In this document: one piece after another, positions 20,023 to 47,886 of the stretch
Numbering within the stretch: the first letter of the stretch is position 1
Layout of the letters: every line of letters begins with the position of its first letter
Virus record (IMG/VR): IMGVR_UViG_3300035034_000897
Location: 1 to 49,429 of that record
Source of the DNA: a virus
Length of the DNA: 49,429 nt
Strand: one strand, 5' to 3'
Notes under the pieces: generated by a model
Database searches by the model: none
Told to the model about the DNA's origin: nothing
What the model saw: the letters and a program-made list of their open reading frames with translations, nothing else
Made by a program: the position numbers and the translations under genes

Positions 20023-21498
20023 TTATGCGTCCTCTTTAATTTGTGTATCTATCACAAACCCTTCAAACTCCCAAGATAAACCGTCACTCTTCTCATAGAA
20101 GCGATAACGATATCTGTTAGCCGAAGCTGTTATTTCAATCTGTTGAACGTTTTGGTTTATAGTATCTTCGTTGTCTATAACGAATGTTCCTGCGTTGTCT
20201 GCGTCTACTGATACTTTCATGCCAGAGTTATTCTTTGTAAATACTGTCATGTGGTTAGTAAACTTCACATCCTCTGGAACTCCGTGATCTAGTAACCTTG
20301 TTTCAAAGAATGAGTCTATTTCTTTTCCTGCATCAGAGAATACTCTGTCAGCCTTTTCTGCAAACTTGTAAAGATTACCGTCAGATGACCCGAAGTAAGC
20401 TCTAGTATTGTCTGACTCTATGTGTTTGCAAGCAGCTGTTACATCTAGGTATGTGCATCTAATATAGCATCTCTGTCTAAGTGTATCGTAGCAGAACCAA
20501 GCGTTCTTATATAAAACATTGCTTACTGTAACGTCACCGATGAAGGCTCTGTATTCTTTCTTGTAATATTCAGTAGCCACTACCTTCCCAAAGGTTACTG
20601 GGTCTATAGCATCGATATACTCTTTAGCTCTTTCAGATATTAGTAATGGTGTAGAACCATCCCAAGCCCAGAAGCCGTGTCTGTTAAACCAATATATTTT
20701 ATTCTCTATAGTAAGTATTGATTTTGCACTGTCACATCCAGTCTCAGATACCTTAGTAGCACCAGACATAGATGAATCCATTTTCCATACTGATCTTTCT
20801 TTAAGGATTATAAGTCTGTCTACTGCTTCTCCACCACCTACTAGCACATCTCCGTCATCTACACCTACAGGCTCAAAGTTAGTCGCATTAACCCATTGGA
20901 CTACTCCACCTTCAACGTCTTCTGAATAATACACCCTGGAAGGATAATTAACACCAGCTACTCTACAGTTCATGACTATGAGTAGTTTTTTAAACTCAGT
21001 AATAAACTTCCCTTTAGGCATATCTACTAAATCCGTATCAGCCCCTGAGTCGCTTGTGTATGTAGTCCCTTTAATAGATATTGGGTCTATGAAATCTGTC
21101 CCGTCGTGTCCTACTATAAAGGCTTTTCCTACTAGGTTGATAGCAGATAGATTAGCATCAGCTGCTGTTGCTACTGTTGCCTTGACTGAAGACCATCCAC
21201 CGTTCTGTCTGTATTTGATAATAGTGTTTGTTCCGTCAAAAGCACCACCAATCTGGTAGTGCAGTGAATCGACGGTATTATAATAGAAATGTAGGAATGT
21301 TAAATCTGTATCAGCCAAAAAAGCTGTGTCATTAGCACTTCTAGTATAGCCAGGGACTTTCTCCAGCTTTCCTATTTTATAAGCCCATACATTCTTACAG
21401 GCGTATAATTCATTGTCTTGCAACAAAAAGTCAGTAACTCCGTTGTTTAGGAGTCCATCAAAGTTTGTATATCGAACTGGTGTTCCGTCTCTAGCCAT
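20023..21498 (-). CDS. Tail hub/nozzle protein, beta-propeller-like
   Basis: The start is moved to ATG 21498 (AAATATATG right after the adaptor stop); a frame from 21513 would overlap that gene. The 491 residues are built from repeated beta blades (KLEKVPGYTRS, DRLIILKERSVWKMD, KIYWFNRHGFWAWDG) like the tail-nozzle or stabilisation proteins that follow the adaptor gene in podoviruses. It likely forms the tail tube end below the adaptor. The neighbouring adaptor and the lack of a tail-tube gene support this. Confidence 0.75.
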   Translation of the reverse strand: MARDGTPVRYTNFDGLLNNGVTDFLLQDNELYACKNVWAYKIGKLEKVPGYTRSANDTAFLADTDLTFLHFYYNTVDSLHYQIGGAFDGTNTIIKYRQNGGWSSVKATVATAADANLSAINLVGKAFIVGHDGTDFIDPISIKGTTYTSDSGADTDLVDMPKGKFITEFKKLLIVMNCRVAGVNYPSRVYYSEDVEGGVVQWVNATNFEPVGVDDGDVLVGGGEAVDRLIILKERSVWKMDSSMSGATKVSETGCDSAKSILTIENKIYWFNRHGFWAWDGSTPLLISERAKEYIDAIDPVTFGKVVATEYYKKEYRAFIGDVTVSNVLYKNAWFCYDTLRQRCYIRCTYLDVTAACKHIESDNTRAYFGSSDGNLYKFAEKADRVFSDAGKEIDSFFETRLLDHGVPEDVKFTNHMTVFTKNNSGMKVSVDADNAGTFVIDNEDTINQNVQQIEITASANRYRYRFYEKSDGLSWEFEGFVIDTQIKEDA

Positions 21499-21503
21499 AT
21501 ATT

Positions 21504-22700
21504 TTATTCCCAATAAATAGATTCAGTAAACTCAACGCTCTCTGCGTCACCAACCTGTATAGGTCCAGTATACTCATCTACTTGTTGTTCAAGTAATTTA
21601 TTAAACATCGCATACATTTTATCCCCTCTTTTATCATTACCCCTGATATAGGCAAACATTGCTGCACAGTAGTATATAAGAATTGGAACAATGGCTAGAT
21701 TAACTGTATCTGATAATTCTGACAGAGTTACTGGTATAGCATAGTAATCGTAATTGATAACTAACTCTTTGCCTGGAGTCGGGAAGAAATGAGCCTGCTC
21801 GTTTCTAATTGTGTATGCTGATGGTTGACCAGTAGGTAGTGGGGTGCTTCCACTAGCCGCTAGTTGTAAGAATCTGCTTTCTGAGATGTAGTCGACTTTA
21901 GTTCCGTCTACTGTAACAAAGTTGATTACATTAACATCTGCTGGAAGAGCTGCGTAAGCTACGTTAGGAACAGTTACTATTGAAGCATCAGTGCTTCTAT
22001 AGAATGGCCAAGTTCTTTTTCTAGTAAGGACTTCATCAATCCCATCCTGAACTAGGTCAATACAGATGTTCCAGTTTAGTGGAGATGTAGGAGCTTCTTC
22101 TACTCTAGTAAGAGCTTTGCCTGCTGCAGACTCAATTATCCTCTTGATGGATCGTCTATTAAAAGTAGTTCCTTCTACTTGCTCTGATGATGGAGAGCTG
22201 TATCCATTTCTAGAGTCATAGAATACTGTTGAGAACCAACCGTATCTAGTGTCTCCAGACCCATCAACATATTCATAAACATATTCTGTAAAACTTTGGG
22301 TTGGGTCAATATCTATTTCAGCAATTTGTTGCATGTCTGCTATATCTCTTCCTGGTTGGACATCTCCGTAAACTACTAGTTTATCGTAGTCCATTACTGT
22401 TACTGGATCAGAAGCTGAATGAGAATTTGATAACTCATCTATAGGCAACTTCTTATCGTCTGTATCATTAGCAAACATTTCAACAATCTCTGTCTTCTCT
22501 TGGTTGTAATCACCCACTAATGCGTAATAGTAGTCTTTGTTTCGTCTATCCTTCTTAAAGAACCCTATCTTGGAGAGGATTTGCAGTTCAGTAGCGACGC
22601 CAGGAGAGGCATCCACATCTGCTGAGAGGTAAGTCCTTGGGCTGTCAGACACTTCTGGATTCACCACCTTCAGTTTTACTCGTATTGGTTGTATAGCCAT
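21504..22700 (-). CDS. Head-tail adaptor (tail tubular A-like) protein
   Basis: 398 residues. The N-terminal third is an extra beta domain. The C-terminal half has the layout of podovirus adaptor proteins: an early helix with VQDGIDEVLTRKRTWPFYR, ALPADVNVINFVTVDG, a strand with QAHFFPTPGKELVINYDYYA, and a long final helix containing IPILIYYCAAMFAYIRG. The adaptor joins the portal to the tail hub, which is encoded next. Family assignment is from pattern; fold prediction would confirm. Confidence 0.7.
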   Translation of the reverse strand: MAIQPIRVKLKVVNPEVSDSPRTYLSADVDASPGVATELQILSKIGFFKKDRRNKDYYYALVGDYNQEKTEIVEMFANDTDDKKLPIDELSNSHSASDPVTVMDYDKLVVYGDVQPGRDIADMQQIAEIDIDPTQSFTEYVYEYVDGSGDTRYGWFSTVFYDSRNGYSSPSSEQVEGTTFNRRSIKRIIESAAGKALTRVEEAPTSPLNWNICIDLVQDGIDEVLTRKRTWPFYRSTDASIVTVPNVAYAALPADVNVINFVTVDGTKVDYISESRFLQLAASGSTPLPTGQPSAYTIRNEQAHFFPTPGKELVINYDYYAIPVTLSELSDTVNLAIVPILIYYCAAMFAYIRGNDKRGDKMYAMFNKLLEQQVDEYTGPIQVGDAESVEFTESIYWE

Positions 22701-22709
22701 TTGTTTTAT

Positions 22710-25700
22710 TTATTCGTCAGAGGATATTCTAGGTTTACCTCTGCTTGTATATAATTTATAAAGTCCTCCAAAGAGTGCTGATAAGACGAATCCTACGCCA
22801 TCGATTATGACGCTGATTACTTTACCACTACCCTTTGCTAGATATATAGTTGCTTCAAGTGTTATTTGAACCACCCCCACTCCTTTCACAATCGGAGTAA
22901 GTAGAAGCCCTGCCATGAAGCTGTATAGTTTAGTTCTTTCTTGGAAGGCTGATAATGAGAAGTGAGCATCTCCAACCATATCTACAAACTTTCCAGCTGC
23001 TGTTCCTATCGCTACTGTTGCTCTGATTATCTTTGTTCTATATTTCTGTATGCTGAGTAGTAATATGAGCGTAGGTCTAGCAAGCTTCTTAACAAACTTG
23101 TTTTTACTAACTCCCATATCAAGTGCTCCTTCTACTAGCAGGAAGTAATCAAAGCTTTCTACTCCTCCACCTATTCCTATAGAAGCTCCGAAGCCTTTAG
23201 CGGCTATTCTAGCCTTGGCTAGTGGAGTTAATATGATTGTAGATAGAAGTGTTTTTGCAAGAGTTTTAATTTTACTGGGGGCAAGACCTATAAAAAGTAG
23301 TCCTATGAGCGAAATTGTTCTAGTGTCATTTCCAGTTAAAGAGATTGCAGTTGGAGTTTTTGATATCCAGAGCTTTTTAAACCCATTTGTTGCAAGTCCT
23401 ATAGTAGTTGAAAGTGTTTTCCCAACAACTCTCCCGAAATAAGATAACGACAAGGTGGCTGTTAATGTTCTGAAATACTGGCTGAAGCCTCTGCCTCCTG
23501 CTATAAACAATTCAACCCCAAAAACTCTACCTCTTAACCATCCCCCAACAATGTTCATAGTAGTGCTAAACGCTTTCGTTATAAAAGAATTTACGCCGAC
23601 TCCTAGTAATATTATCTCTTCTTGATATAGCTGAAAGTCTAGAGAATCGTTGAAAAGGTTTTTGTTAGCCCAAGTTGAACCGTTATATAGCTGGAACGAA
23701 TCTGGCCTATTAGCCTGATTGAAAAAGCCCATAAAGAAGTTTGCGGATGTGCCCTCAAACTCTAAAAAATATTCGTGTCCTGGTATAACCCTAACCCCTA
23801 GTTCAAATGTTGTCCTCCCCTGATACACACTTGTCACCTCTGACGCATCAAACTGTTTTGTTAATATTATGTTTCCACTTGGAGCCTCTCCACTAACTGA
23901 ATCATATAGATTAAAGCTAACTGACTTTCCAGTAACATTACCATCTGAAAAGATGCACATGTTTATTTTAGATATGTAAGGATCAGACGCTGTAAAGATT
24001 ATCCCACCTTTAAATGGGGACATTGGTATTTGAGAGCCTACTTTCTGGGTGTTAACCCATAAAGGGTTCTCATTCCCGTATTTGTGGACCCCCACTCCAA
24101 TGTCTATGTTTATAGTTTTTTTAACAGCCTTCGTAGTCTCACCATCTATCACTGCCTGGATAGGTGATGTGACAGTTGCTGCTCTGAATACTGTAGCAGT
24201 AGAATAGAGAGTGCCCCCACTATATCCGCCAGTTCTTGTCCAAGCCATAGTAACAGAGTCTCCTGTGAATACTTTATAGCTGGCCCAAGACTCTGGGGTA
24301 GAGTTCCCATTAAATAAACTTTCTTGACCGACTGTCCCTGGAATATATAAACCAGTATTATACTGATTGTAATAAGAGACACTATCGATTATCAGTCCTC
24401 CGCCAGTGAGACCAGCGTAAGTTCTAGAGTTGACCCCACTTAAAGCATCTGTAGGAGCCTCTGAATATAGAATAGGATCAGAAGTATCCACCCCAGACAG
24501 ATTAACAGCTGACATGTGCCAGCCATAATTGGGTTGGACTATATTAGCGATCCCTACTGCTGGATTAATTAGATAGTAAGTTATGGCTGTAGTTGTATTC
24601 GAAGATTCGTGGTGATTCTCATTAACTTTAGTCATAGCTACCCCACCATATGTTACGTTCGGAGCTGTCGCCATTTCACCGTAAAAGAGCTGGACAACTA
24701 GAACATTAGTCCCAGCCACCACCTCGTATGGCGTTGACAGGCCTATCGCTTTTTGAACAGCTCCACCTATGACAATCGGAAGAGCTCCGCTGTTTTCAGT
24801 TCTTGTTTTTGATATCTTTTTTATAATATTACCAGTGACTGTGAAAGCATCTGTCATCGCTCCTTTGGCAACGTCTATAATCCCATAAACTCCAAGAGCT
24901 ACAGAAGGTGCAGCTTGGTGGACTTTGAACACAGTATCTTTATACGAAATCTGGCCCCAGCCAGCAGTAGGATTAGCCCGAACAATAGTCCCACCATCGT
25001 ATACATCGTCATAAGAATATAAGTTTTTCCAATTGGCATCATCAGACGTAGTCATTATTACAGCATATTTATTCCCAATAACTAGAGACGTTTTTAGTGA
25101 CATAAAGAACCAGTCTGGGCCATTAAGAGCTGGACCGTTTAAAAAGGAATCAGTAGCTAAGCTATCACCGATTGGGTAGCCATCAACATCTGCGTTATAT
25201 ATGTTCGCAATCACTGTAGTGACCTTGTCTCCGCTCATATAAAAACTTACACCCTCTATAGCACCAGAGGTAGCAATAAATGATTGCCCAGTTGGATAGC
25301 TAAGCCTGAAAGAGTTAGAGCCTCCATCATTCAATTCTTGACTTGGTGAAACAATCCCCTCAGGGGCTATTATCTTGCTTGTTTTCTTTAGGATCTCTCC
25401 TGTTAAAATAGGAGAAGCCTCTCCTGGAGATGACACGGACAAGATATGAAAAACTTGGTTGTAAGTCAAATTTGCATCTGCATTATATGGTTCTGAATAG
25501 CTGAAAACCGCAGTATATCCACTGCCTATAAAGTCATCAACATCATACGGCTTTATTAACGATGGATTATACATCGCTATCATAAGCTGAGTAGGAGCTG
25601 GATCTGGTGGTGGTAATAGTTGTTCTGGTGTAGACCAAGTGGCACCATCTTTATATGTATAATCGATGTTGCATCGTTCGTTCCCCCCGTCATATCGACC

Positions 25701-26729
25701 TTGAACTGGTTGGAATGCGTGTATAACACCAGAAGCATCAATGCTCACGCTCAATGCACTACCACTCATACCAGTTAAAGTGCCGTTTCCTACATCAGTA
25801 AAAGGTATATTCTCCATACTCCAAGTCCCATCAAGTTCAAGGTGGTGATAGCCCTCCACAAGGTTTTCTATACGATTAGCTAAGAAAACGTGCAATTTGC
25901 CGTCTATGTCAAACTGAGAGTCTATTCCTCTAATTCCAAGAACATCAAAGACCCCGACAACATTTGCATCGGTAGTCCAAGTGGAGCCGTTGTAGTGGTA
26001 ATAGTCTACATAATATTTTTTAGAAATATTAGGGTCCCTGCTTACTGCTGTAATATGTGGGTTCCCTTCCCAGTCACAAGTGATAGATATTCCTCTCTCT
26101 TGATTATAATAAGTCGTGACTGGAGGAAGAGACATAGCAGTCGGTGTCCAAGTAGAGCCATTATATTTGCTACAAGTGAGATTATTCCCGCTTGTATATG
26201 CTACATATACACTCCCATCGTTCGCAGAGGTTGTGCCAAAAACCCAAGCTGCTGTAGTTATTGTGGTTTCAGCCGTGAAACTATCAGCAGAAGATTTGCA
26301 CTTTAAGATTGAACCTTGAGTATAAAAAACTAATATCTCAGTTCCTGCTCTCTCTATAGCAATATCTTCCAACTGTCCTGTGCTTTCTTTTACAAGCGTT
26401 CCAGCAGACCAAGTAGAGCCATCATCTGTAGAGATGTGGCGGTAAACTTTTCCAACTACTGTCTGTGAGAAAGGGAATCCACCAGTTTCTATAAAATCAA
26501 AAGACAACGCATTCAAATTCCCGTCTGCGTCCTTTACAATCATTTGAGAAGTCCTCGCTGCAGCTGGTCTTCCGATCGCTGGAGTCAATAAATTAACTTC
26601 ACCATAAGTAGACTCAATATCTATTGGACCGCCACCGCCAGCGACAATCTCAAGGTTCTTTTTTATATACTTAACAATCCCCTGAGAAATGGAGACTGCT
26701 GCAGTTTTTAGTTCATTAAATGTTGCCAT
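22710..26729 (-). CDS. Large modular tail protein: beta-propeller, beta-sandwich modules, hydrophobic 18-residue repeats
   Basis: 1339 residues, start in AAAAATATATG. Residues about 60-370 form a BNR/sialidase-like propeller (repeated DDGSTWS, YNGSTWT, CDWEGNPHI). At least three beta-sandwich-like modules follow (about 450-620, 650-860 and 900-1010; the third contains FNLYDSVSGEAPSGN and a late GHEYFLEF). Between modules and in the last 290 residues lie hydrophobic stretches of the same kind as the neighbouring repeat protein (KTLSTTIGLATNG, KTLLSTIILTPL). It is probably a tail fibre or spike involved in surface binding; catalytic residues of true sialidases are not evident. Confidence 0.75.
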   Translation of the reverse strand: MATFNELKTAAVSISQGIVKYIKKNLEIVAGGGGPIDIESTYGEVNLLTPAIGRPAAARTSQMIVKDADGNLNALSFDFIETGGFPFSQTVVGKVYRHISTDDGSTWSAGTLVKESTGQLEDIAIERAGTEILVFYTQGSILKCKSSADSFTAETTITTAAWVFGTTSANDGSVYVAYTSGNNLTCSKYNGSTWTPTAMSLPPVTTYYNQERGISITCDWEGNPHITAVSRDPNISKKYYVDYYHYNGSTWTTDANVVGVFDVLGIRGIDSQFDIDGKLHVFLANRIENLVEGYHHLELDGTWSMENIPFTDVGNGTLTGMSGSALSVSIDASGVIHAFQPVQGRYDGGNERCNIDYTYKDGATWSTPEQLLPPPDPAPTQLMIAMYNPSLIKPYDVDDFIGSGYTAVFSYSEPYNADANLTYNQVFHILSVSSPGEASPILTGEILKKTSKIIAPEGIVSPSQELNDGGSNSFRLSYPTGQSFIATSGAIEGVSFYMSGDKVTTVIANIYNADVDGYPIGDSLATDSFLNGPALNGPDWFFMSLKTSLVIGNKYAVIMTTSDDANWKNLYSYDDVYDGGTIVRANPTAGWGQISYKDTVFKVHQAAPSVALGVYGIIDVAKGAMTDAFTVTGNIIKKISKTRTENSGALPIVIGGAVQKAIGLSTPYEVVAGTNVLVVQLFYGEMATAPNVTYGGVAMTKVNENHHESSNTTTAITYYLINPAVGIANIVQPNYGWHMSAVNLSGVDTSDPILYSEAPTDALSGVNSRTYAGLTGGGLIIDSVSYYNQYNTGLYIPGTVGQESLFNGNSTPESWASYKVFTGDSVTMAWTRTGGYSGGTLYSTATVFRAATVTSPIQAVIDGETTKAVKKTINIDIGVGVHKYGNENPLWVNTQKVGSQIPMSPFKGGIIFTASDPYISKINMCIFSDGNVTGKSVSFNLYDSVSGEAPSGNIILTKQFDASEVTSVYQGRTTFELGVRVIPGHEYFLEFEGTSANFFMGFFNQANRPDSFQLYNGSTWANKNLFNDSLDFQLYQEEIILLGVGVNSFITKAFSTTMNIVGGWLRGRVFGVELFIAGGRGFSQYFRTLTATLSLSYFGRVVGKTLSTTIGLATNGFKKLWISKTPTAISLTGNDTRTISLIGLLFIGLAPSKIKTLAKTLLSTIILTPLAKARIAAKGFGASIGIGGGVESFDYFLLVEGALDMGVSKNKFVKKLARPTLILLLSIQKYRTKIIRATVAIGTAAGKFVDMVGDAHFSLSAFQERTKLYSFMAGLLLTPIVKGVGVVQITLEATIYLAKGSGKVISVIIDGVGFVLSALFGGLYKLYTSRGKPRISSDE

Positions 26730-26739
26730 ATATTTTTAA

Positions 26740-29700
26740 TTATTTTGAAATCCTTACTTTTGGAATAGAGCTTGTGACTCTACTACTTGATTGAGGAGAG
26801 CTTGTAACTTGTATCCCTTGAACAGAGCTAGTGGCTCTGCTCTTTTTTTCTCTTTCAGGGCTTTTAAACCAAGCTGGTTTAATCACCCTTTTATATAGGT
26901 TCTGATAGACACCCATGAAAAGAGAGAGAACAAGATCAAGTCTAACTGTTAAATAAAATCTTTTAGCACCCTTTCCAACCAGAGTTATTACGAGCGTAAT
27001 AGCTGATTTTACAATAGATTTTATAATATTGGGCACTAAACTAATAATTTGAGTAAGCAACTTCCTAATGGATTTCGTAATACTAGAGGTCACATATATG
27101 GCAACTTCAGCTATAATCCCTACGATTTTAAGCCCTTCTACTATAATTATAGCATTTTTCAGCTTTTTAATAAACTTGATAATTTCAGATATCAGGTTTA
27201 TCGTTATTTCTAAAAGTTTTTTCAGATACTTTGTTATTTTAGAACTGAGTGTAATTGTCAGATTAAATATCAGACCATAGATTACTCCACCAGTCCCTCC
27301 ACCTATGCTGATAATAAGTCTAAACAACTTATACACAGCCTTTTGCACAGTTGTGGATAAAGATATGGACAGTTCTACTAGAACACTGACTAATCGTCCA
27401 AATCCACCAGACATCCATATTATTACGTTCTTTATGGTCTTAAGTAACTTATTCACAGAAGTTACTAATGATATAGATAGTTCTACGATAAGTTCTACGG
27501 CTTGACCAAAACCACCAGAGATATCAATGATTATTCCTCTGATTAGCTTAATAAGTTTGGTGACCGAAGAAGTCACGCTAAGAGTAACCTGAATCATCGC
27601 CTCTATTACTCTTCCGATGACACCACTAATGAGTATTTCAACCCATCTAGCGATAGAGATAAGAATGGTCCTACCAGGGCTCAGGGCTAGCACATTCTCT
27701 ATTTTTATCCTCATGCTCTTGGTCAATTTAGAACCAAGTGTCAGTATTGAACTCACCAATAAATGGATTGCTCTATTGGCGACATAAGAGATTGTTATAA
27801 CTGCCCCTTTCACAAGCCCAATGACAAATAGGCGAACTGCATTTAATCCTAAAGCAGCGGAAAGCAGGATGCTAATAGCAACCGTCTTTAATGCTGTTAG
27901 TCCAATACTAACACTTGCTACCAACTCGTAAATCTTAGTTGAAGCATAAAATAATGTGATCTGAACTGACTTGAAATACTTCAAGAAAAACCTTTTGGTT
28001 GGAGTCAACGATATGGTCAACATAACCAACATTTGTATGACATTGCCAGCTGTTCCTGTCATATAAAGGAAACTGGAAAATAGCTTCTTAATATACTTTG
28101 CTATTGAAGCCGTCATATTGATAGATATATTAATAAGCATTTCAATGACTCTTCCTGTAGTTCCAGAGATTGTTACTGACACTGATTTTAAATATTTGAG
28201 ATAAAAAGACCTCAAAATTGATAATATAAGGCCAGTTGATACAAACTTTTGTATGAACTTGCTTAATAAGGCTGAAAAACTGATAATAAGTTCCACCAAT
28301 ATTTCTATCGTTCTTCCTGTCGCTCCAGACATATAAACTATAACTTGCTTGCCAGAACGAATAGCCTTCCTGATATATATTCCTAGTGTAAATGCAGTGC
28401 TCTTTATCAAGGTAATATATTTATTGACAGAACTGTATATATTCAGTATAGCTTCGACTGTCATGTCGATTACCTGTCCAAGTCCTCCAGATATATCAAT
28501 AGTCACAGATTTAAAATATCTCAAAAATAGACTTTTTTGTCCAAATAATGACAGAATTTGTGACTTTATCACAAATATTGCCTTTTTTTGGAAAGAACTG
28601 ACTAAAAAAGAAACATTTGCTATTAAGTCATAAGTCTTCCCAGTCCCTCCAGATATGCCAAGTGATATTGATTTAAAGTATTTTAAGAAGAACCTTTTTA
28701 CTGGAGTCAGCAATATGGTCACGTTTGCTACTAATGCATAAACCTTCCCAAACCCTCCAGATATGTCTAGTGTGATGCTCTTAAAGTATTTAAGAAAGAA
28801 ACGTTTTCCTGGTGTCAGGAAGACATCCAGCTCCACTAATATGGAGATAAAACGATTGTATGTAGTGGTCATGTATAAAAAAGTAGCTCTTCCTGCCTTT
28901 ATTAGAGCGTTCTTAACTAATCCTAGTGACAAAACCAATGTAACTACCATGTAGTAGGCTTTGACAAAACCACCAGAAATAGTCATAGTAACGCCCTTAA
29001 TATACTTCAAAAATACGCTCATAGAGCTTCCTAGGGCTAAAGAAAGGCTGATAACTAGCTGGTATGCGTTGTTTATACTCCCCGATATAGACAAAATAAC
29101 TCCCCTAAAGAATCTTACAAATATACTTTTTAGGGCACTAAGTCCAATATTAATCTCAACCAATACATCTATTATTCTACCAGGGGCTCCTGTTATAGAG
29201 ATTATTACTCCACCAAAATACTTTATCAGTTTAGAAACTGACGCACTTAAGTCCACTATTGTATGGACTAAAACGCTAATTAGCTTGTTAGTATATCCTG
29301 ATATACTAGTAGCCGCTCCTCTAAACATTTTAACAAGTAAAGAGAAAGATGGTGATAAAGTTAAAGCAACTTGAACCAATGTTTGATAAGCACTGTTGAT
29401 CCCTCCACTAATCCCTATAATAATTGACTTGTAAAGTCTAATTAACACTGACTTAGATACAGAGAGAACCACTGTAACATTAGTTAATAACTCTATAACC
29501 CGTCTGTCTAGGCTGCTCAAAAATAGCTGAGCAGACCTAAACAGCTGTATAAAGGCGGAGAATGACGAAGTAAGTAGCACGGTTGTGGCCATTACGATCT
29601 GTAGAACTTTTGTCCCAAAAGCACTAAACACTATCGTCACTCCCCTAGAAAGAGAAATTAACCTTGTCAAAGTGGGGACTAAAGACAAAGTAAGGTTGAT

Positions 29701-30807
29701 AACCCCTTCAATCGTTTTGTTAGCTAAACTCGAGATGGTGATTGTTATAGTTCTTGAGAGTCTTATAAATATCACCTTTAGAGCAGATAAGCTAATTGAA
29801 GAAGTTTTCAGTAAGCCAATACGCCTAGTAAGATCGGCAGATAAACTAAGAATACTGTTGAAAACTCCTTCAATTAACTTTCCACCAGTCCCAGATATGG
29901 TGAAAATAGCTCCTCGAATCATTTTAATAAATATAGAAAAACTAGCTGTTAGTGCTATAGAAACAGTTGCCATTATCTCAATTGCTCTCCCAAACCCACC
30001 AGATATACCGATAGTTACTGATTTAAAATACTTTAGCAAAAAAGCCTTACTTGGAGTAAGGTTGATAACTGTTTGTAGTATAAGTTCATATAAACTGGTC
30101 AAAGTTCCAGAGACTGCTAGAGTTGCTCCTTTAACGTATTTGATGAAGAATGCCCTGATTATTGATATAAACAAAGATACTTCTACCAGTATCTCTATGA
30201 ACCTGTTTTTAGTTCCTGAGAGCGTCATGGTGACGCTGTTAATCATTCTGATGAATATGGTCTTTGTTGCTCCTAAGGTAAGGGAGACGTTAGCCAGTAG
30301 CTCTATAACACGGTTCTGGAATGAAGATATCGTTACTGTTACTGACTTGAAATATTTTAGAAAAAAGCTCTTAGCTCCAGCAAGGGATAGTCCTGCATAG
30401 AACAAGAATGAGAATAGTTTTTCGAAGGCTGCAGTCATTGCCATAGTCCCAGACCTAATCATTCTAAGGAAGAATGAGAACTTGGCTGATAATGACATTG
30501 AAGCACTCGCTACTAAGCTATAAACTCTGTTTAGTAGTGTTGATATATAAAGTGTTACTGATTTGAAATATCTAAGGAAAAAGATCTTGCTTACACTGAG
30601 AGCCAGGGATACTGCTACTAGTCCGTATATAGCTCTAGATATAGATTGCGTTATAAAGAATGCACCACCTTTTCTGATTGCTGCTAATATTGTTCTTATA
30701 GATGACAAAGATAAGGCAACAGCAATTGTCTTATATAGTCTCTGTGGAATGTTACCCTTCGGTCTCCCTCCGTATGAGTGAGCCCCGTAAGAAAAAGAAC
30801 CATACAT
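26740..30807 (-). CDS. Giant hydrophobic protein built of about 70 tandem 18-residue repeats
   Basis: 1355 residues. It opens with MYGSFSYGAHSYGG, an N-terminal 'YG' motif seen on phage appendage proteins, then almost everything from about residue 24 to 1290 is a tandem array with a period of 18, usually pairing into 36 (FFLKYFKSVTVTISSFQN, then RVIELLANVSLTLGATKT). Each unit has a bulky hydrophobic/basic half and a Ser/Thr-alternating half (SVTLDIS, NVSLTLG) closed by Gly/Ser. It is very poor in acidic residues. The end is polar (Ser/Arg-rich). It sits next to the modular tail protein. Function unknown; a membrane-interacting or fibrous tail component are both possible. Confidence 0.85.
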   Translation of the reverse strand: MYGSFSYGAHSYGGRPKGNIPQRLYKTIAVALSLSSIRTILAAIRKGGAFFITQSISRAIYGLVAVSLALSVSKIFFLRYFKSVTLYISTLLNRVYSLVASASMSLSAKFSFFLRMIRSGTMAMTAAFEKLFSFLFYAGLSLAGAKSFFLKYFKSVTVTISSFQNRVIELLANVSLTLGATKTIFIRMINSVTMTLSGTKNRFIEILVEVSLFISIIRAFFIKYVKGATLAVSGTLTSLYELILQTVINLTPSKAFLLKYFKSVTIGISGGFGRAIEIMATVSIALTASFSIFIKMIRGAIFTISGTGGKLIEGVFNSILSLSADLTRRIGLLKTSSISLSALKVIFIRLSRTITITISSLANKTIEGVINLTLSLVPTLTRLISLSRGVTIVFSAFGTKVLQIVMATTVLLTSSFSAFIQLFRSAQLFLSSLDRRVIELLTNVTVVLSVSKSVLIRLYKSIIIGISGGINSAYQTLVQVALTLSPSFSLLVKMFRGAATSISGYTNKLISVLVHTIVDLSASVSKLIKYFGGVIISITGAPGRIIDVLVEINIGLSALKSIFVRFFRGVILSISGSINNAYQLVISLSLALGSSMSVFLKYIKGVTMTISGGFVKAYYMVVTLVLSLGLVKNALIKAGRATFLYMTTTYNRFISILVELDVFLTPGKRFFLKYFKSITLDISGGFGKVYALVANVTILLTPVKRFFLKYFKSISLGISGGTGKTYDLIANVSFLVSSFQKKAIFVIKSQILSLFGQKSLFLRYFKSVTIDISGGLGQVIDMTVEAILNIYSSVNKYITLIKSTAFTLGIYIRKAIRSGKQVIVYMSGATGRTIEILVELIISFSALLSKFIQKFVSTGLILSILRSFYLKYLKSVSVTISGTTGRVIEMLINISINMTASIAKYIKKLFSSFLYMTGTAGNVIQMLVMLTISLTPTKRFFLKYFKSVQITLFYASTKIYELVASVSIGLTALKTVAISILLSAALGLNAVRLFVIGLVKGAVITISYVANRAIHLLVSSILTLGSKLTKSMRIKIENVLALSPGRTILISIARWVEILISGVIGRVIEAMIQVTLSVTSSVTKLIKLIRGIIIDISGGFGQAVELIVELSISLVTSVNKLLKTIKNVIIWMSGGFGRLVSVLVELSISLSTTVQKAVYKLFRLIISIGGGTGGVIYGLIFNLTITLSSKITKYLKKLLEITINLISEIIKFIKKLKNAIIIVEGLKIVGIIAEVAIYVTSSITKSIRKLLTQIISLVPNIIKSIVKSAITLVITLVGKGAKRFYLTVRLDLVLSLFMGVYQNLYKRVIKPAWFKSPEREKKSRATSSVQGIQVTSSPQSSSRVTSSIPKVRISK
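26907..30738 (-). repeat. Coding tandem repeats, 54-bp period (108-bp higher order)
   Basis: The 18-residue protein repeat corresponds to diverged 54-bp units at the DNA level. The most conserved piece encodes FFLKYFKS and appears again and again on the plus strand as variants of TTGAAATATTTTAGAAAAA (for example near 27970, 28190, 28510, 28675, 28770, 30020, 30345 and 30565). Copies differ at many sites, so the array is old or selected at protein level rather than a recent duplication. Single extra half-units break the 36-residue phase in several places. Confidence 0.8.
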
Positions 30808-30812
30808 AGCAT

Positions 30813-31565
30813 CTATTTTTTATCTATTGTTAATATTCCTGATAGCTTGGCATTAGCTGTCCTCATTGCGTTATCACTTCTGGTGCATTCATCTCCGCTT
30901 GGTATTCTTGTCACCCAACTCATTCCGACTACCGCCATTAAATTTCCAGTTTCTAAATCAGTTACTGGACAAACCTTCATTCTTTTTATTCCCATTGAAA
31001 GTAACTTGCTTCTGATAGGTTCGGTTGACATTTCATCAGGGTCACGAGAAACACACTTGCCATCAAGTAAGTCTTCTATCCACCAACTTGGTATCATAGT
31101 AGTCGGTATATCCTTGAACGATGCCATCACATTGTCTACGTTCTGAGAGGTCGTTTCGTTGGTGGTTGTCATATACATAAAATGAGTCCCGTTTATATCT
31201 ACGCTTCCGTCATGAAACCTAATTAAATAAGCTCTCTCTCCTGCAACTGAAATTAAGTCCTTTTCTAAAACTCCATCTATCAAAACATTCTGTCTGTTTG
31301 TTGACGCAAGTAATTTCTGCATTTCCTGTGGACTTGGGTTAGCTGTATCAACTTTGTCCTCTACTCTGGCTGACGTGTCTATTGCTATCTGTGAGTTTGT
31401 TTCAATAGCATTTATCTTTTTGAAACCATAGAACAAGGACAGGGATAAAACTCCTATGAGTGCTATGAATATTATTGCTATAATATTTGCCCTCCAACTC
31501 TTTTTACTAAAAAGTGCAAAGTTCTCAAAGGTTTCTACAAGTATTGGTATTTTCTTATCTGGCAT
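30813..31565 (-). CDS. Membrane-anchored protein with GAF-like domain
   Basis: The start is chosen at ATG 31565, overlapping the upstream stop; a frame from 31625 extends into the previous gene. Of 250 residues, about 27-50 form one transmembrane helix (NIIAIIFIALIGVLSLSLFYGF). A soluble domain follows, with the pattern RAYLIRFHDGSVDINGTHF ... KRMKVCPVTDLETGNLMAVVGMSWV, which resembles a GAF-type sensor or inhibitor domain. Similar membrane-anchored proteins occur beside lysis genes in podovirus genomes. A part in lysis timing or superinfection control is inference. Confidence 0.65.
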   Translation of the reverse strand: MPDKKIPILVETFENFALFSKKSWRANIIAIIFIALIGVLSLSLFYGFKKINAIETNSQIAIDTSARVEDKVDTANPSPQEMQKLLASTNRQNVLIDGVLEKDLISVAGERAYLIRFHDGSVDINGTHFMYMTTTNETTSQNVDNVMASFKDIPTTMIPSWWIEDLLDGKCVSRDPDEMSTEPIRSKLLSMGIKRMKVCPVTDLETGNLMAVVGMSWVTRIPSGDECTRSDNAMRTANAKLSGILTIDKK

Positions 31566-31830
31566 AATTTTTTGTTTTTTCTCTAAGTATAGCGTCTTCA
31601 TTATTTTCGTCTGACTCAATCTCATTATTACAGTGATTGGGGGTCCAAAAGAAAAGCGTGTTAACTATTTTAGTAAGTAATGAATTAGGGTAATTTCTGC
31701 CCAGCCTTGAACTTATCGTTTCATCAGGTGATCCGCCAAAAATTACATTCACAAATTGGTCTATTGAAACCAAAATGTTCAAGGGGTATTTTAGTAATGG
31801 GTGTAGTTTTTTCTTTGTTTTGTCTTCCAT
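31555..31830 (-). CDS. Widespread small phage protein with PDETISSR motif
   Basis: 91 residues with IDQFVNVIFGGSPDETISSRLGR and a late FFWTPNHC, a pattern I recognise from small proteins common in many phages ('GGxPDETxSxRxxR ... HC'), usually close to lysis or tail-end genes and without an established function. A partly amphipathic N-terminal helix suggests membrane association. It overlaps the GAF-like membrane protein by 11 bases, implying coupled expression. Confidence 0.7.
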   Translation of the reverse strand: MEDKTKKKLHPLLKYPLNILVSIDQFVNVIFGGSPDETISSRLGRNYPNSLLTKIVNTLFFWTPNHCNNEIESDENNEDAILREKTKNYAR

Positions 31831-32177: not shown

Positions 32178-33248
32178 TTAAGTTAGTCTGGTAGCAATTA
32201 TGTATGCGTTCTTGATATAAGCAGTTGCTCCATCTACAGACCTATAATCCAAGTCTATGTTATGAGCAGCGGCTGTGAATGTGGCATAAAAGGCTCCCCC
32301 GTGACACTGATATTCTCCATCGTCTTCATCATCCTTCGGTTCATAATTAGCTGTAAAGAAAGTAGTTGTATCATTGTCCTGTATTCTAAATTCTAAATTT
32401 GACGAAGAAGATGAAAGAGCTGTCAGACACATAAATTCTATTTTCCATATACCAGCCGTTGTCGGTGTGAAAGTCGCTCTAACCTTCTGTTGAAATGTAG
32501 AACTGCTTGTTGAAGATATACCGGCAGAACTATTATACCCGACTGTGGGTAAACCAGCTGGAGGTGGAGCCCAAGTTGGAGCTCCAGCGGCGTTCCCTTG
32601 TAAGAAATTTCCTGCACTCCCTTGGTTATTAAAATCAGAAGAGGCTAAGCCGAGAGTAACATTGTTGGCGAGCGACTTCCCGTTTATTGTCCGAGAGGTA
32701 GGGACACCTCCTAAGTTGGTTAAAGTATAAATAGCATCAAAATATGTTTTTAGTGTAGCCTTGATATTCGCCCAAGATAATTTCTTCAAAACATTAGAGG
32801 CGGCACTATCAATTAACCCGACCATATCAGCGTCCACTGGAGTTGTTTTGGCTGTTGCTCCATTAATAATGGCCCCGAGTGTGACAGCTGTTTCATTCCC
32901 AGAGTTTGTGCCTGTAGTATTTTGGACAACTGTGTTTTTAGCAGAAGTTAAATGATAGTGTTCTCCGACTGCCCCTCCTTGTAAATTTAATAAAGTTTCG
33001 TGATCACCTGACGCTCCTGCAGGTCCTTCTGGTCCAGTGTCTCCTGTGTCTCCCTTTTCTGCCAGAACCTGCCAATAAGCTGTATCAGTTGGTAAATTGC
33101 CAGTAGTAGAAACAAGAGCTAAATAAGAGCCTCCATTATATTCTACAGAGTCGCCAATATTATAAGTGGTCGCACCACTATACGCCCCCATTGGGTGTAT
33201 CATACTTTCAATATTTATAATTGTAGGGTCTTGTGGTATGTAACTCAT
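32178..33248 (-). CDS. Tail fibre with carbohydrate-binding-like and short collagen-like segments
   Basis: 356 residues, start in AAAAATATATG. Residues about 19-62 match the small CBM5/12-type module (YNIGDSVEYNGGSYLALVST, then AYWQVLAEKG). A short collagen-like GxY run follows (GDTGDTGPEGPAGASG, about 69-84). The middle is a Thr/Asn/Ala-rich fibre shaft, and the last 110 residues form a TNF- or C1q-like beta domain (FTPTTAGIWKIEFMC, then DNTTTFFTANY-type strands). This is the order expected for a trimeric receptor-binding fibre. Confidence 0.75.
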   Translation of the reverse strand: MSYIPQDPTIINIESMIHPMGAYSGATTYNIGDSVEYNGGSYLALVSTTGNLPTDTAYWQVLAEKGDTGDTGPEGPAGASGDHETLLNLQGGAVGEHYHLTSAKNTVVQNTTGTNSGNETAVTLGAIINGATAKTTPVDADMVGLIDSAASNVLKKLSWANIKATLKTYFDAIYTLTNLGGVPTSRTINGKSLANNVTLGLASSDFNNQGSAGNFLQGNAAGAPTWAPPPAGLPTVGYNSSAGISSTSSSTFQQKVRATFTPTTAGIWKIEFMCLTALSSSSSNLEFRIQDNDTTTFFTANYEPKDDEDDGEYQCHGGAFYATFTAAAHNIDLDYRSVDGATAYIKNAYIIATRLT

Positions 33249-39167: not shown

Positions 39168-40340
39168 CTATTGAATGTCTCTCAAAGCTGAACTTTTGTT
39201 CGGAGCTTTGATAGCCAAGTTAGCATAATATCTTAGAGTAGCGTTCCAAGCAGGAGTTGTTGAACTTCTGTCTAGGATAGCTCCATCCTCGTTTAGGAAA
39301 GACATAGGTGCTAGATCTTCGCAAGACATAGTTGAGTTGTCTATGAAATACCACTCATCTACTGGACAATCGTAATCTGCGATTACTGGCATGCTGTTAA
39401 ATGCTACACCAGTAAATCCACCCTTAAGTTTCATTGTATCTGTGTAACGACGATCTGGAGTAAGAAGTTGACCGTAAGTGCTATAAACATCGAAAGATGT
39501 TAGAGCGTATTTAGGATCACCTTTTTTCTTAGCTTCCAAGAAAGTTGTGTGAAGAAGTGCATCTGTTACAGCACGGACAGTTCCAGCTGAGTTAACATAT
39601 GATTTCCACCAGATGTTATCAGTTCGGTTAATAGTCTCAAGAACGTTAACATTTGTTCCATCATCGATAAGACCTTTTAGTCCCATCATTTCAGCGTCAA
39701 TGTTAGATTCTGTTGCAGAACGTGCGATGTATACAGCGTCACCTGCTGTTCCAACACCTGCTACTAATTCGAATGTTGTTCCATCTGTGATAGAAGCAAC
39801 AACTCCAATATCTGCTGCTGTTGCACCAAATCTTAGAGTGTTACCAACTTCGATATAGTCAGTAGGGTTTGCTCCAACCATAGGTTGTTCTAGAACAACA
39901 GTTGTTCCTGTAACAGAAGTTACAATTGCGATAGCACCAGTTCCGATACCGTATCCTTGGCGACTAAGTTGTCGTTGCATATCTTCTTTTGCTCCTGAAT
40001 ATTCTGATTCTAATACGTTTACCAAAAATTCTTTTGATTTTTTTGACGCTTGTAGAGAAACATCTGTCAATGAAATAGTATGGAAGTTGTATTTCATTGG
40101 AATACTGGCCTGCATGTATTTTTGGCTTCCTGCAGTTGGAAGAGTCAAGGTTTCTGACCCAGCCGCTGAACCAACATTTCTACCGTAGTGAACAGAGAAA
40201 TATTTAGTTGTGCTTCCGTTTGATTGTGCTACGTTACTAAGAATATTTTGAAACAATACATTCTTTGTAAACACTTGCTCGTGAACGACTTTGTCGTAAA
40301 CTCGCATAGCTGCACCCGCTAGAGTTGCTACTGATTGCAT
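39168..40340 (-). CDS. Major capsid protein (HK97-like fold, P22-type group)
   Basis: 390 residues, directly downstream of the scaffold gene. Features of phage capsid proteins: an N-terminal arm (VVHEQVFTKNVLFQNIL), KYFSVHYGR, a long helix SEYSGAKEDMQRQLSRQGYG (about 113-132), an inserted beta domain with GTTVVLEQPMVGANPTDYIEVG style strands, and a final LRYYANLAIKAPNKS. Fits an HK97-fold capsid protein of the coat-protein groups lacking a delta domain protease. Ends with TAG. Probably the most strongly expressed gene. Confidence 0.85.
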   Translation of the reverse strand: MQSVATLAGAAMRVYDKVVHEQVFTKNVLFQNILSNVAQSNGSTTKYFSVHYGRNVGSAAGSETLTLPTAGSQKYMQASIPMKYNFHTISLTDVSLQASKKSKEFLVNVLESEYSGAKEDMQRQLSRQGYGIGTGAIAIVTSVTGTTVVLEQPMVGANPTDYIEVGNTLRFGATAADIGVVASITDGTTFELVAGVGTAGDAVYIARSATESNIDAEMMGLKGLIDDGTNVNVLETINRTDNIWWKSYVNSAGTVRAVTDALLHTTFLEAKKKGDPKYALTSFDVYSTYGQLLTPDRRYTDTMKLKGGFTGVAFNSMPVIADYDCPVDEWYFIDNSTMSCEDLAPMSFLNEDGAILDRSSTTPAWNATLRYYANLAIKAPNKSSALRDIQ

Positions 40341-41254: not shown

Positions 41255-41283
41255 ATTATATCATAAATTAACTAATTACTTAA
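41255..41283 (-). promoter_or_regulatory. Putative extended -10 promoter before scaffold/capsid genes
   Basis: Leftward: TGATATAAT, an extended -10 (TGn plus perfect TATAAT at 41260-41255), with a weak -35 (TTAAGT) 17 bp further upstream overlapping the portal stop. It lies in the 96-bp gap after the portal gene, which also contains a small CGTG/CACG hairpin at 41222-41238. It would boost scaffold and capsid expression. Confidence 0.45.
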
Positions 41284-43286
41284 GCGTTCGACATTGGAGT
41301 GCTTGTATCTACTGCCTCTCCTAGCCCTGGCATAGCTTCTTGAACTGGCTCTGGGGCCTGTTCTGTGGGCAATCCTTGCATTTCTCCACCTGGAATAGTA
41401 GGTCCTCCGCCTTGCATATACCCTTCTTCATTCTGAATATGTTCATCAAAGAGCCGTTTATTGTTCTGATAAGCATTATTATCCTCTTGGATAAATGCCA
41501 TATGCAGTTCTGTATGCTCTTCCGACCATAATGATTTAGGGGTTAATGGGACTTGTTGCCCAGCTGCCATTGACATATTCTCCTGGTCTGCCATATCTGC
41601 GGTATCTTCTGGACCATTTCCACCAGTATCGTGAGAAGCTTTCTGTTTAACCATTTCTTCCTTCATCTTCTCAGCTTTCATCTTCTCTACCCTAGCTAGA
41701 ATGTCACTAATATTAGATACTGATAGCTTTTCTAGTAAAGTTTGAGGATCAATAACTCCAGTTTGAGCAAGCATAAATAGTCTTTCTATTTTAGTTTCCT
41801 CGCTGTAAGCCACTTCAGGCACAATGGCCACTCTGACCTTAGAAGACTTAATAACTGTTGTTCCATTTGGGGCTGGGCTGTCTTCTGTAACTGCTCCACC
41901 ACCAATATATTTAATCTCTTCACCCTCTTCAACTATTTTATCGCTAACAACTTGATGGTCCTCAATAGCTTCTAAACAGAACTCTGCCATTTCTCCAAGC
42001 ATTTTCTCTAAGTTCTCAATAGGTTCTGATACTGTAGCTGCGTCTGCAGACTGCAGTGCTTCAATACCTTTACCAGATTGAACGCTTCCTGGGGCTCTTC
42101 CCATAGAAGCTGCTCCAATACCACCGAGTTCTTCAATCCATCTTTCGAGGTTAGCTAGATGGTTAAAAGGTGCGGCAGGTAATGGTTGTAGGTTTTGTTG
42201 GACAGGTGGGACAGAACCTTTATAGTAAATCTTCTCAGCCCCTTTGTCTGTAATTGTAGAAACTTCTACTCCTTGCTTGATAAGATATTTACCAGCAAGC
42301 ATCCTCTGAATGTATCCTTCGATCTGACTTGTAGACTTATCGAGAGATTTGTTCAGAGAGATAAGGTCTTTCACCCACGCATTTGAATAGATAGAGTTGG
42401 GATCTTTTTCTGGGTTGTATACAAACAATGGGTATCTTCTGTAGTTAGGGTCGTATACTCTAACAAATTCATTCCCGATAATAGTAAGTATCCTCACCTT
42501 AGTCCTACCCCCCTCTTCCCACTTCATAGTCAACTCCTTAACGATAACGCTCTCCAAGTCCTTACTACCTTTAGTAATTCCATCTTCGAACTTCTCTTGT
42601 TCTAGAAGTTGTTTATATTCAGAAGAACCGTCTTTGTTATCTGGAGTGATAACTGACTTGTCCTTAATAGTGTAACTCTTGTTGTTTAATACTGAAGTCA
42701 AAGGCTTCTTGATAGCTTTGAAATAATATCTAGCACCCTTCAGGTTTGGTGCGAATGGGTCAATGTAAATATCAAAAGAATCATCACACCAGAAATCTGT
42801 CTCTGTCTTACCATCACCTTTAACAGTAACTGATCCTTCTAAAAAACCAGCAGAATACTTCAGTCCGTTAATAACAACGTCTGTGAGAGAGCTTTTGATC
42901 TGTTTCTTTTCATAAATGTTCTGTAAGATTTTGTTCTTTTGTTTTGCAGCACTAAGGTCATCATCCTCAACTCCGTCTGGATGGACTTCCCATCTAGGCT
43001 GGTTTCGTTTGATGAAGTTTTTAATACCACGAACTTGGGACTTAATCTTGTTGACCGTCCTTCTAATTTCACCTTTAGAAATAGGAATAACCTGTATCTT
43101 GTTTGTAGTTTTGTTGTAGACGACCCAATGGTCTCCACGATAAAAACGCTCATTCGTATACCAATCTCTATGCAATTTAAGGTAGTGAGTCCTTGTATCG
43201 TCAAACAGTTTGTTTGCAAATATGGCGACGTTACTATCCCCAGGTTTTAAGCCTTCACCTCGAAGGTCTTTTAATTCATACTTCAT
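41280..43286 (-). CDS. Portal protein
   Basis: 668 residues, start in ACAAAATATG. The N-terminal region has WYTNERFYRGDHWV, NKIKSQVRGIKNFIKRNQPRWEVHP and AAKQKNKILQ, typical of podovirus/P22-type portals (NR.V..I.....RN.P...V.P...D..AA). A central stretch with DPFAPNLKGARYYFK and later SLNKSLDKSTSQIEGYIQR follow, and the C-terminus is Met/Glu/Pro/Gly-rich, as in long portals with a barrel or flexible tail. Order TerL - portal - scaffold - capsid supports the call. Confidence 0.88.
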   Translation of the reverse strand: MKYELKDLRGEGLKPGDSNVAIFANKLFDDTRTHYLKLHRDWYTNERFYRGDHWVVYNKTTNKIQVIPISKGEIRRTVNKIKSQVRGIKNFIKRNQPRWEVHPDGVEDDDLSAAKQKNKILQNIYEKKQIKSSLTDVVINGLKYSAGFLEGSVTVKGDGKTETDFWCDDSFDIYIDPFAPNLKGARYYFKAIKKPLTSVLNNKSYTIKDKSVITPDNKDGSSEYKQLLEQEKFEDGITKGSKDLESVIVKELTMKWEEGGRTKVRILTIIGNEFVRVYDPNYRRYPLFVYNPEKDPNSIYSNAWVKDLISLNKSLDKSTSQIEGYIQRMLAGKYLIKQGVEVSTITDKGAEKIYYKGSVPPVQQNLQPLPAAPFNHLANLERWIEELGGIGAASMGRAPGSVQSGKGIEALQSADAATVSEPIENLEKMLGEMAEFCLEAIEDHQVVSDKIVEEGEEIKYIGGGAVTEDSPAPNGTTVIKSSKVRVAIVPEVAYSEETKIERLFMLAQTGVIDPQTLLEKLSVSNISDILARVEKMKAEKMKEEMVKQKASHDTGGNGPEDTADMADQENMSMAAGQQVPLTPKSLWSEEHTELHMAFIQEDNNAYQNNKRLFDEHIQNEEGYMQGGGPTIPGGEMQGLPTEQAPEPVQEAMPGLGEAVDTSTPMSNA

Positions 43287-46713: not shown

Positions 46714-46820
46714 TACGCCAATTTGTTGATTAAGAATTAGTCCTCCCTCTTCTTGCCCAAGAGGTGGCGAGCCTAGTCGGGGCTTCTAAAATATGATGTG
46801 CACTTATCTATATTTCATTG
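46714..46820 (-). other. Untranslated gap with two hairpins between tRNA-Trp and the next gene
   Basis: Leftward sequence contains AGCC-CCGACTA-GGCT and CCTCTT-GGGCAAG-AAGAGG (a perfect 6-bp stem with a seven-base loop) followed by A/T-rich DNA. They could be tRNA 3' processing or mRNA leader structures. No T-run and no clear promoter, so neither a terminator nor a promoter is claimed. Confidence 0.4.
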
Positions 46821-46894
46821 CACAGGGGGCACGACTCGAACGTGCAATCGACGGGTTTGGAATCCGTTGCCTTAAACCATTAGGCCACCCCTGC
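46821..46894 (-). tRNA. tRNA-Trp (anticodon CCA)
   Basis: A full cloverleaf: acceptor GCAGGGG/CCCCTGT (7 pairs, first is G-U), D-stem GCCT/AGGC with AATGGTTTA loop, anticodon arm ACGGA-TTCCAAA-CCCGT (anticodon CCA, U33 present, with an A-C mismatch at the pair next to the loop), five-base variable loop, T-arm GCACG-TTCGAGT-CGTGC, and discriminator G73. CCA is not encoded. It lies two bases after the terminase nuclease stop, so it must be processed from the late transcript or from its own one. Confidence 0.88.
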
Positions 46895-46896
46895 AA

Positions 46897-47880
46897 CTAA
46901 TCTTGATCCCAATCACTTGCTTGTATCTTGGGTCTTAATAAGTTTTGTATATCTTTTTGTATTCTTGTTTGTTCTGGCTTCACCATCTCTGGGCTTATAG
47001 GTCTAGTCATCACCATGTATCTAAGAGAGTCTGGTCCATGGTCATTCTTCTTAACAGGTTCCTCTGGATCGTTGTAATTTCTTACATTTGCCTCTGTAAG
47101 TTCCTTATAGCGGTAATTAGTGAGCTCAGAGACTAAATTAGGGCACTTATCTTTGAATATATATAGGCTAGGGGTGCCATCCACACCCAGCTTCATATAC
47201 TCTCTAATACGAGTAATGCCTGCATCTATGTCATTTTGAGCCAGTTCGAAGTCCCATCCATGGTCATAAAACTCCTCTTTAATAGAATATGGGATCTCTT
47301 CACCTCCAGTAACCTTACTCCTGTTCTTACTCTTAGTAGAAGGGTCAATTACCATCGGACTAAAGGTGTTTGTAGCGATTAATCTACGTTGAGTAACAGA
47401 TTTCCACTCCAAAGGGGGCATAAGATAGGCAAATTCTTCGAACATGTCCTTGCTGGCTCTTGATGGCAGGGCTGGTTTGTAGTATTCATCTATAATATAT
47501 AGCTTCTGGTCCATGGTCCAAGCACCAACTAGTGCACAATTGGGGTTTCTCTGTCCAAAGTCTAGACTCAGTAGCAACTCATAAGGTTCTGGGAGTTCAT
47601 AAGAGTTGATTAGGTGAATATTCTTATCAAAGTCACAGTATTCAGGACCATAAATGAGTTTACCACTCTTAGTAGAGAAATCTATCTCATATTCCTTATC
47701 CCAGGTAGCTTTTGGAGTCCCTCTTCTCTCATTATCATACCACTCTGCACCATCTCTCTCTGGATCCTTGTTCGGATCGGCTGTATAATGAAGCATTGCG
47801 ACAGCAAATCTGTTCTTGGGATTTTTCCACACTTTCATTCCCTTTATTTTTTCTGGTTGGTTTACTTCTTCGTATTTCAT
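46897..47880 (-). CDS. Terminase large subunit, nuclease part (separate ORF)
   Basis: 327 residues with the RNase H-like nuclease of TerL: first Asp in LLSLDFGQRNP (D107), second in MVIDPSTKSK (D179), and third in the NDHGPDSLRY helix (D280/D284). Starts at ATG 47880 in a TAGAAATATATG context. It is in the same frame as the upstream ATPase ORF and separated by TAG-AAA-TAT only; joined, the two parts make about 561 residues, a usual TerL length. Either a real second gene with its own start or the second half of a readthrough product. Confidence 0.87.
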   Translation of the reverse strand: MKYEEVNQPEKIKGMKVWKNPKNRFAVAMLHYTADPNKDPERDGAEWYDNERRGTPKATWDKEYEIDFSTKSGKLIYGPEYCDFDKNIHLINSYELPEPYELLLSLDFGQRNPNCALVGAWTMDQKLYIIDEYYKPALPSRASKDMFEEFAYLMPPLEWKSVTQRRLIATNTFSPMVIDPSTKSKNRSKVTGGEEIPYSIKEEFYDHGWDFELAQNDIDAGITRIREYMKLGVDGTPSLYIFKDKCPNLVSELTNYRYKELTEANVRNYNDPEEPVKKNDHGPDSLRYMVMTRPISPEMVKPEQTRIQKDIQNLLRPKIQASDWDQD

Positions 47881-47886
47881 ATATTT

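Follow-up and report, generated by a model that had tools for sequence, protein, structure and literature searches.

What is a virus likely to do with a protein that consists almost entirely of an 18-residue hydrophobic repeat? This question is raised by an ORF with an ATG start on the minus strand (positions 26740-30807) of a virus record of 49,429 bases, which was analysed at its full length and is referred to here as the window. An earlier note, made from the sequence, had described the 1355-amino-acid product, here called P, as a virion-region protein built of about 70 repeats, and had allowed that these might form either a solenoid or a membrane-inserting rod.

Self-comparison of P confirms the period of 18 over nearly the whole protein. 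Specifically, self-correlation scored with BLOSUM62 peaks relative to shuffled sequences at lags of 18, 36, 54 and 72 residues (z of 12.5, 23.5, 16.4 and 22.1, respectively), and no significant signal is seen at lags of 6 or 12. A unit profile matches P 64 times, and by this profile residues 55-1152 (27352-30645, minus strand) form an array of 61 consecutive units whose spacings are all multiples of 18, with zero insertions or deletions. Only three off-register steps occur, all of them within the degenerate ends, where the final repeats (residues 1153-1299; 26911-27351, minus strand) lead to a basic, Ser-rich C-terminal tail (26740-26910, minus strand). The number of repeats falls from the proposed 70 or so to about 61-64 clear units, with a few degenerate ones in addition. 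Mean pairwise identity among the units is 20% for protein and 38% for DNA, which argues that the array is not a recent product of replication slippage. Moreover, a fixed unit length at such divergence implies selection on unit length, as is expected if the units stack.

The composition of P is hydrophobic and strongly basic (GRAVY +0.79; 13% Ile, 13% Leu and 0.8% Asp; 154 K/R versus 39 D/E; no Cys), and the repeat array by itself contains 114 K/R and 32 D/E. Acidic residues are therefore few, as the earlier note had it, but they are not absent, and Glu is concentrated at position 7 of the unit, where it often alternates with Lys. The unit approximates the consensus xxx[KR][FL]I[KE]hh[KR][SGN]V[TS]L[ST]L[ST][GA], in which positions 6, 14 and 16 are nearly always hydrophobic (mostly I/L), position 17 is S/T, position 18 is a small residue, and almost all K/R residues sit at positions 2, 4, 7 and 10. 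The pairing of units into 36-residue A/B repeats is real, but its phase slips along P, such that KRFFLKYFK-type units occur at both parities. An open frame of 271 codons that runs antisense to P (29585-30400, plus strand) is probably a by-product of the codon composition of this gene.

By sequence, P has no family match in Pfam, PHROGs, NCBIfam or the PDB. Searches by tblastn with P and with proteins of three contigs discussed below (L013, L225 and L231) yielded nothing credible among 50,697 GenBank phages when filtered for low complexity, nor did a tblastn search of plasmids with P, and the view that P belongs to no characterised family is upheld. A synthetic consensus did match Aeromonas phage 13AC503A (E 2e-3), but the protein is short and the match was judged to be due to chance.

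P nevertheless does not stand alone, since uncultivated phages repeatedly encode a related repeat of 18 residues. Direct scans of viral contigs with P and with the adaptor encoded near it gave no relatives, whereas a search with the major head protein as query turned up 25 loci belonging to a related clade of viruses. Contig L013, from the same virus clade as P, has an ORF that carries choice-of-anchor-like domains together with a clean period-18 array (z of 13.2 at lag 18). In addition, 15 real members were recovered from viral contigs by a degenerate DNA pattern that requires [L/I/V/F]-[S/T]-F-[S/T]-G three times in phase, and a looser scan provided one further member (L051), making about 16 viral contigs with LSFTG-type repeats (L129, L214-L216, L218-L220, L223-L225, L227-L231 and L051). 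In 84,980 species genomes, the same degenerate pattern gave 44 stretches, all of low complexity or in the wrong frame, and no members. A loose pattern of five [LIVFM][ST]G motifs returned mostly collagen-like and other low-complexity repeats and was set aside.

The members of this family all come from uncultivated phages and lie within virion gene blocks. They share the core KxLTAxLSFTGxLxK and the consensus [AS]-L-x-[KR]-x-[TI]-x-K-x-L-[TS]-[AG]-x-L-S-F-[TS]-G, with K/R at positions 4 and 8 of most units and with occasional units of 19-22 residues. The family is uncurated and, as judged by exact-pattern scans and low-complexity-filtered tblastn, which are not proof, it is absent from cultured phages. 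When unit profiles are compared, the observed score is reached in 0 of 2000 permutations for P against L013, in 0 of 2000 for L013 against the LSFTG family, and in 16 of 2000 for P against the family directly, a direct link that is only suggestive. A comparison of the P side with the family by hhalign gives 98.6%, a value that is biased because L013 rows stand in both alignments, and this comparison was set aside. L013 bridges the P form and the LSFTG form, and P accordingly appears to be a divergent relative of the family through L013, its membership not being proven by direct comparison. Like P, the LSFTG-type repeat has a period of 18, K/R at position 4, a strand-like xLxLSG end and a virion context. 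Unlike it, P has V/I rather than A/G at position 12 and more bulky residues, and it carries neither 19-22-residue spacers nor extra domains. P is the longest and most hydrophobic relative of the repeat family found here.

The company that these repeats keep bears on their function. Neighbouring or companion domains in the family are jelly-roll, LamG-like, CBM-like or head-spike-fibre domains. For example, the L220 repeat protein contains the phage head spike fibre domain GTA_spike_fiber (NCBIfam NF048003, E 1.6e-22), which is a companion of the repeat rather than the repeat itself and is absent from P, and L051 combines the repeat with a LamG-like virion domain. In the wider family, repeat genes adjoin MCP, portal, terminase or tail genes, and they are often followed by a gene for a protein of about 108 residues, three examples of which match BppU_N (two above the Pfam cut-off and one weakly). 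Other types of period-18 array were also encountered, namely ASGSLTLSG arrays in L234 and L151 and acidic LELSVGEIILDKTLKPVT repeats in L062 (2253-3608).

Within the window, the placement of P in a virion region is borne out by synteny with the genes for the portal (41280-43286; phrog_156), the major head protein (MCP; 39168-40340) and an SU10-type head-tail adaptor (21504-22700; PF24175, E 1.1e-15), all on the minus strand, as are the other genes described in this paragraph. Directly upstream of P is the gene for a 270-residue protein with one hydrophobic segment (30813-31625), and beyond it a tail-fibre-like protein (32178-33248; phrog_5073) shows a weak CBM5/12 match. On the other side lies the partner of P, Q (22710-26729; 1339 residues), which has BNR-like and jelly-roll-like stretches and a C-terminus of degenerate repeats (22755-23612) whose periodicity is weak (lag 36, z 3.0). 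The adaptor gene follows next, and then that of a virion structural protein (20023-21513; phrog_3287) that, from the gene order, may be nozzle-like. An adaptor of the SU10 type points to a short tail, and in SU10 the long tail fibres attach at the adaptor ring (PMC9509320).

Related contigs keep the order terminase, GroEL, portal, scaffold and MCP, and those that reach it also keep the downstream block from the adaptor onward. P and Q, situated directly upstream of the adaptor gene, occupy a variable stretch. The same slot holds a 953-residue jelly-roll/LamG-type protein with repeats in relative G006, a 207-residue period-20 array in G015 and G016, and a 682-residue protein with a period-22 array in G017; in G008 and G009 it holds no repeat protein. 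The N-terminus of the G006 protein matches a PHROG minor tail protein (E 3.9e-16), and its repeats have no significant match to the P unit profile. The array motifs are ISISDSLGLTD for period 20 (L042, 11180-11800) and FALTGNAI for period 22 (L040, 16425-18470). Several slot proteins of relatives end in the basic tails KPKIFK, TPKIFK or TPRLLK, comparable to SIPKVRISK at the end of P, and these tails could represent a shared docking element. Similarly, the N-terminal peptide of P, read directly as MYGSFSYGAHSYGG (30742-30807, minus strand), resembles YGSGPYGRGPFG of L220 and TYNDISTTYNDVDTNYNG of G015 and is possibly an attachment peptide.

Exchangeable content of this kind is as expected for host-recognition parts. 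We favor, with a probability of roughly 0.55, the reading that P is the stiff stalk of a host-recognition appendage on the virion and that Q is its binding partner. In support of this reading are the variable slot at the adaptor gene, in which repeat stalks and domains of a binding type are found; the role of the SU10 adaptor ring in holding long tail fibres; and the pairing of the repeat in relatives with head-spike-fibre, LamG-like and jelly-roll domains. Counting against it, P itself lacks a ligand-binding domain. As a virion structural protein, P would be a long, stiff and basic solenoid in which each 18-residue unit forms one coil stacked on the next, and a rise of about 4.8 Å per coil, as in beta-solenoids, would make its 61 coils a rod of about 29 nm. 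The appendage might be a variable head or neck spike or a fibre at the adaptor ring, with Q carrying candidate ligand-binding domains and working together with P. Hydrophobic residues would pack into the core and perhaps line a lateral face used for oligomerization, and outward-facing Ser/Thr and ladders of K/R might touch the negative charges of the cell surface or hold the binding domains in place.

The predicted fold is in keeping with such a stalk. AF2 was run on alignments of each protein's own repeats, using residues 145-288 of P (22 rows, including 14 family sequences and one from L013) and 12 units of L230. Both models are all-beta and contain no helix, with a pLDDT of 67 and pTM of 0.60 for P, and a pLDDT of 81, rising to about 90 in the second half, for L230. 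The L230 model most closely resembles the right-handed beta-helix 3p4g (Z 18.6, rmsd 3.4 over 216) and also resembles the tail fibre of phage 7-7-1, 9rkv (Z 14.8); the P model resembles another right-handed beta-helix, 3lyc (Z 12.5, rmsd 2.7 over 143). Foldseek searches with the models never gave significant E-values.

The entry 3p4g is region IV of MpAFP/MpIBP from Marinomonas primoryensis, a 19-residue-repeat RTX beta-solenoid of a giant adhesin in which 12 repeats make one roll (PMC6891781). As judged from the L230 model, the likeness is that of one repeat per coil (18 versus 19 residues) and a long stack within an adhesion protein. P differs in having no sequence match to it and no calcium-binding Asp/Gly motif. 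Indeed, an RTX or MpAFP beta-roll was rejected for P, which is almost devoid of Asp and has no GxGxD consensus, and a left-handed hexapeptide beta-helix of the LpxA type was rejected because P has no period of 6. The long tail fibre of Agrobacterium phage 7-7-1 has a beta-helical middle section and ends in jelly rolls (PMC12796354). It is trimeric and has no known 18-residue repeat family, and its Foldseek E-value is only 1.6.

Beyond the models, a solenoid is suggested by 61 units that diverge to 20% identity with zero indels, and by the pattern of charges. At the same position of successive P units, like-charged pairs occur 19 times versus 48 expected, and opposite pairs 23 times versus 12.7. 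This avoidance is consistent with stacked coils. Alternatively, it could stem from the duplication of a 36-residue pair, for which a parity-based A/B shuffle is an unclean control because of the phase slips. Nor is the avoidance general, as lysines recur in nearly every unit of the LSFTG family. A solenoid of some form is nonetheless the likely fold predicted for P, although the pLDDT of only 67 and the many family and L013 rows in the alignment behind the P model count against it. Confidence is lowered further by the tendency of AF2 to return confident but unrealistic beta-solenoids for repeats, as shown for perfect repeats of random sequence (PMC11795689), and by the helix-like amphipathicity of the first ten unit positions.

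This last property raises a second possibility, which retains the appendage role and which we regard as unlikely although worth serious attention: that every unit combines a short amphipathic helix (positions 1-10) with a following strand (positions 11-18), forming an unusually tight alpha/beta solenoid. The earlier note had observed that 18 residues equal five helical turns. A single continuous helix is not indicated, given the strand-like alternation at positions 11-18, but positions 1-10 do show a helix-like hydrophobic moment at 100 degrees (z of 7.0 for P, 5.9 for L013 and 20.1 for the family). This two-part pattern is common to P, L013, L230 and the wider family, and a beta bias of AF2 for repeats is documented. 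Against the mixed unit, neither AF2 model contains a helix, 18 residues leave very few for turns, and mean beta propensity exceeds alpha propensity at positions 3-11. A bolder proposal, to which we also give a low likelihood, is that the repeat constitutes a previously unseen fold class, either the tight 18-residue alpha/beta unit or a beta solenoid, that is confined to uncultivated phages and whose strongly hydrophobic form in P would build a rod of some 60 coils, either active on membranes or bundled side by side.

Might P instead be ejected, or become embedded in the host membrane, as a hydrophobic, basic rod that helps to form a DNA channel? Parts that act on membranes frequently combine basic charge with hydrophobicity, and the GRAVY value, Ile and Leu content and strong positive charge of P suit this role. 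Of the two forms first allowed for P, however, the solenoid is favored by the AF2 models and the charge pattern, and membrane insertion by composition alone. K/R residues break the hydrophobic runs every few positions, relatives either fill the slot differently or have no repeat protein there, which is unlike a core injection part, and conserved candidate internal proteins (15871, 17259 and 9662) lie downstream. An ejection role is consequently disfavored, and we consider it doubtful. It is quite improbable that P acts as an internal protein of the head or as a DNA-binding scaffold whose basic ladders bind packaged DNA, as the excess of K/R in the array and at family positions 4 and 8 might suggest, since the carbohydrate-binding-like, LamG-like and head-spike-fibre domains of the family point outward.

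Some tape measures contain repeats, and P is very long, repetitive and inside the virion block, but a tape measure is the most improbable reading and is rejected, because P has no PHROG or Pfam match to one, the slot is not conserved in relatives and has no repeat protein in G008 and G009, the adaptor points to a short tail, and in siphophage L219 a separate tape measure (phrog_27166, 5.3e-34) is encoded next to the repeat protein.

Solenoid stalks of phage appendages are a known kind of part, whereas the repeat family is uncurated. That this family turns up repeatedly among the virion genes of uncultivated phages, yet lacks a curated model and gave no match in searches of 50,697 GenBank phages, marks an annotation blind spot, and naming the family would flag attachment appendages in many viral contigs. 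P also offers a natural test of AF2-style beta-solenoid predictions for imperfect repeats, and a rod of about 60 equal-length coils is a possible scaffold for protein engineering.

Other features of the window were observed in passing. The large terminase (46897-48582, minus strand) is divided between two neighbouring ORFs, and the relatives that cover this gene show the same division, with gaps of a few bases to more than 2 kb. A tRNA-Trp gene (46820-46894, minus strand) lies between the terminase genes and that of a phage GroEL (44250-45821; phrog_5725, 6.3e-125), which is kept across the clade at 54-63% identity. Finally, the MCP gene of G015, G016 and G017 is present as two collinear pieces (L038, 11342-13119; L043, 1307-3084; L041, 6275-8053), and the interruption of about 0.7 kb between them suggests an intron or intein.
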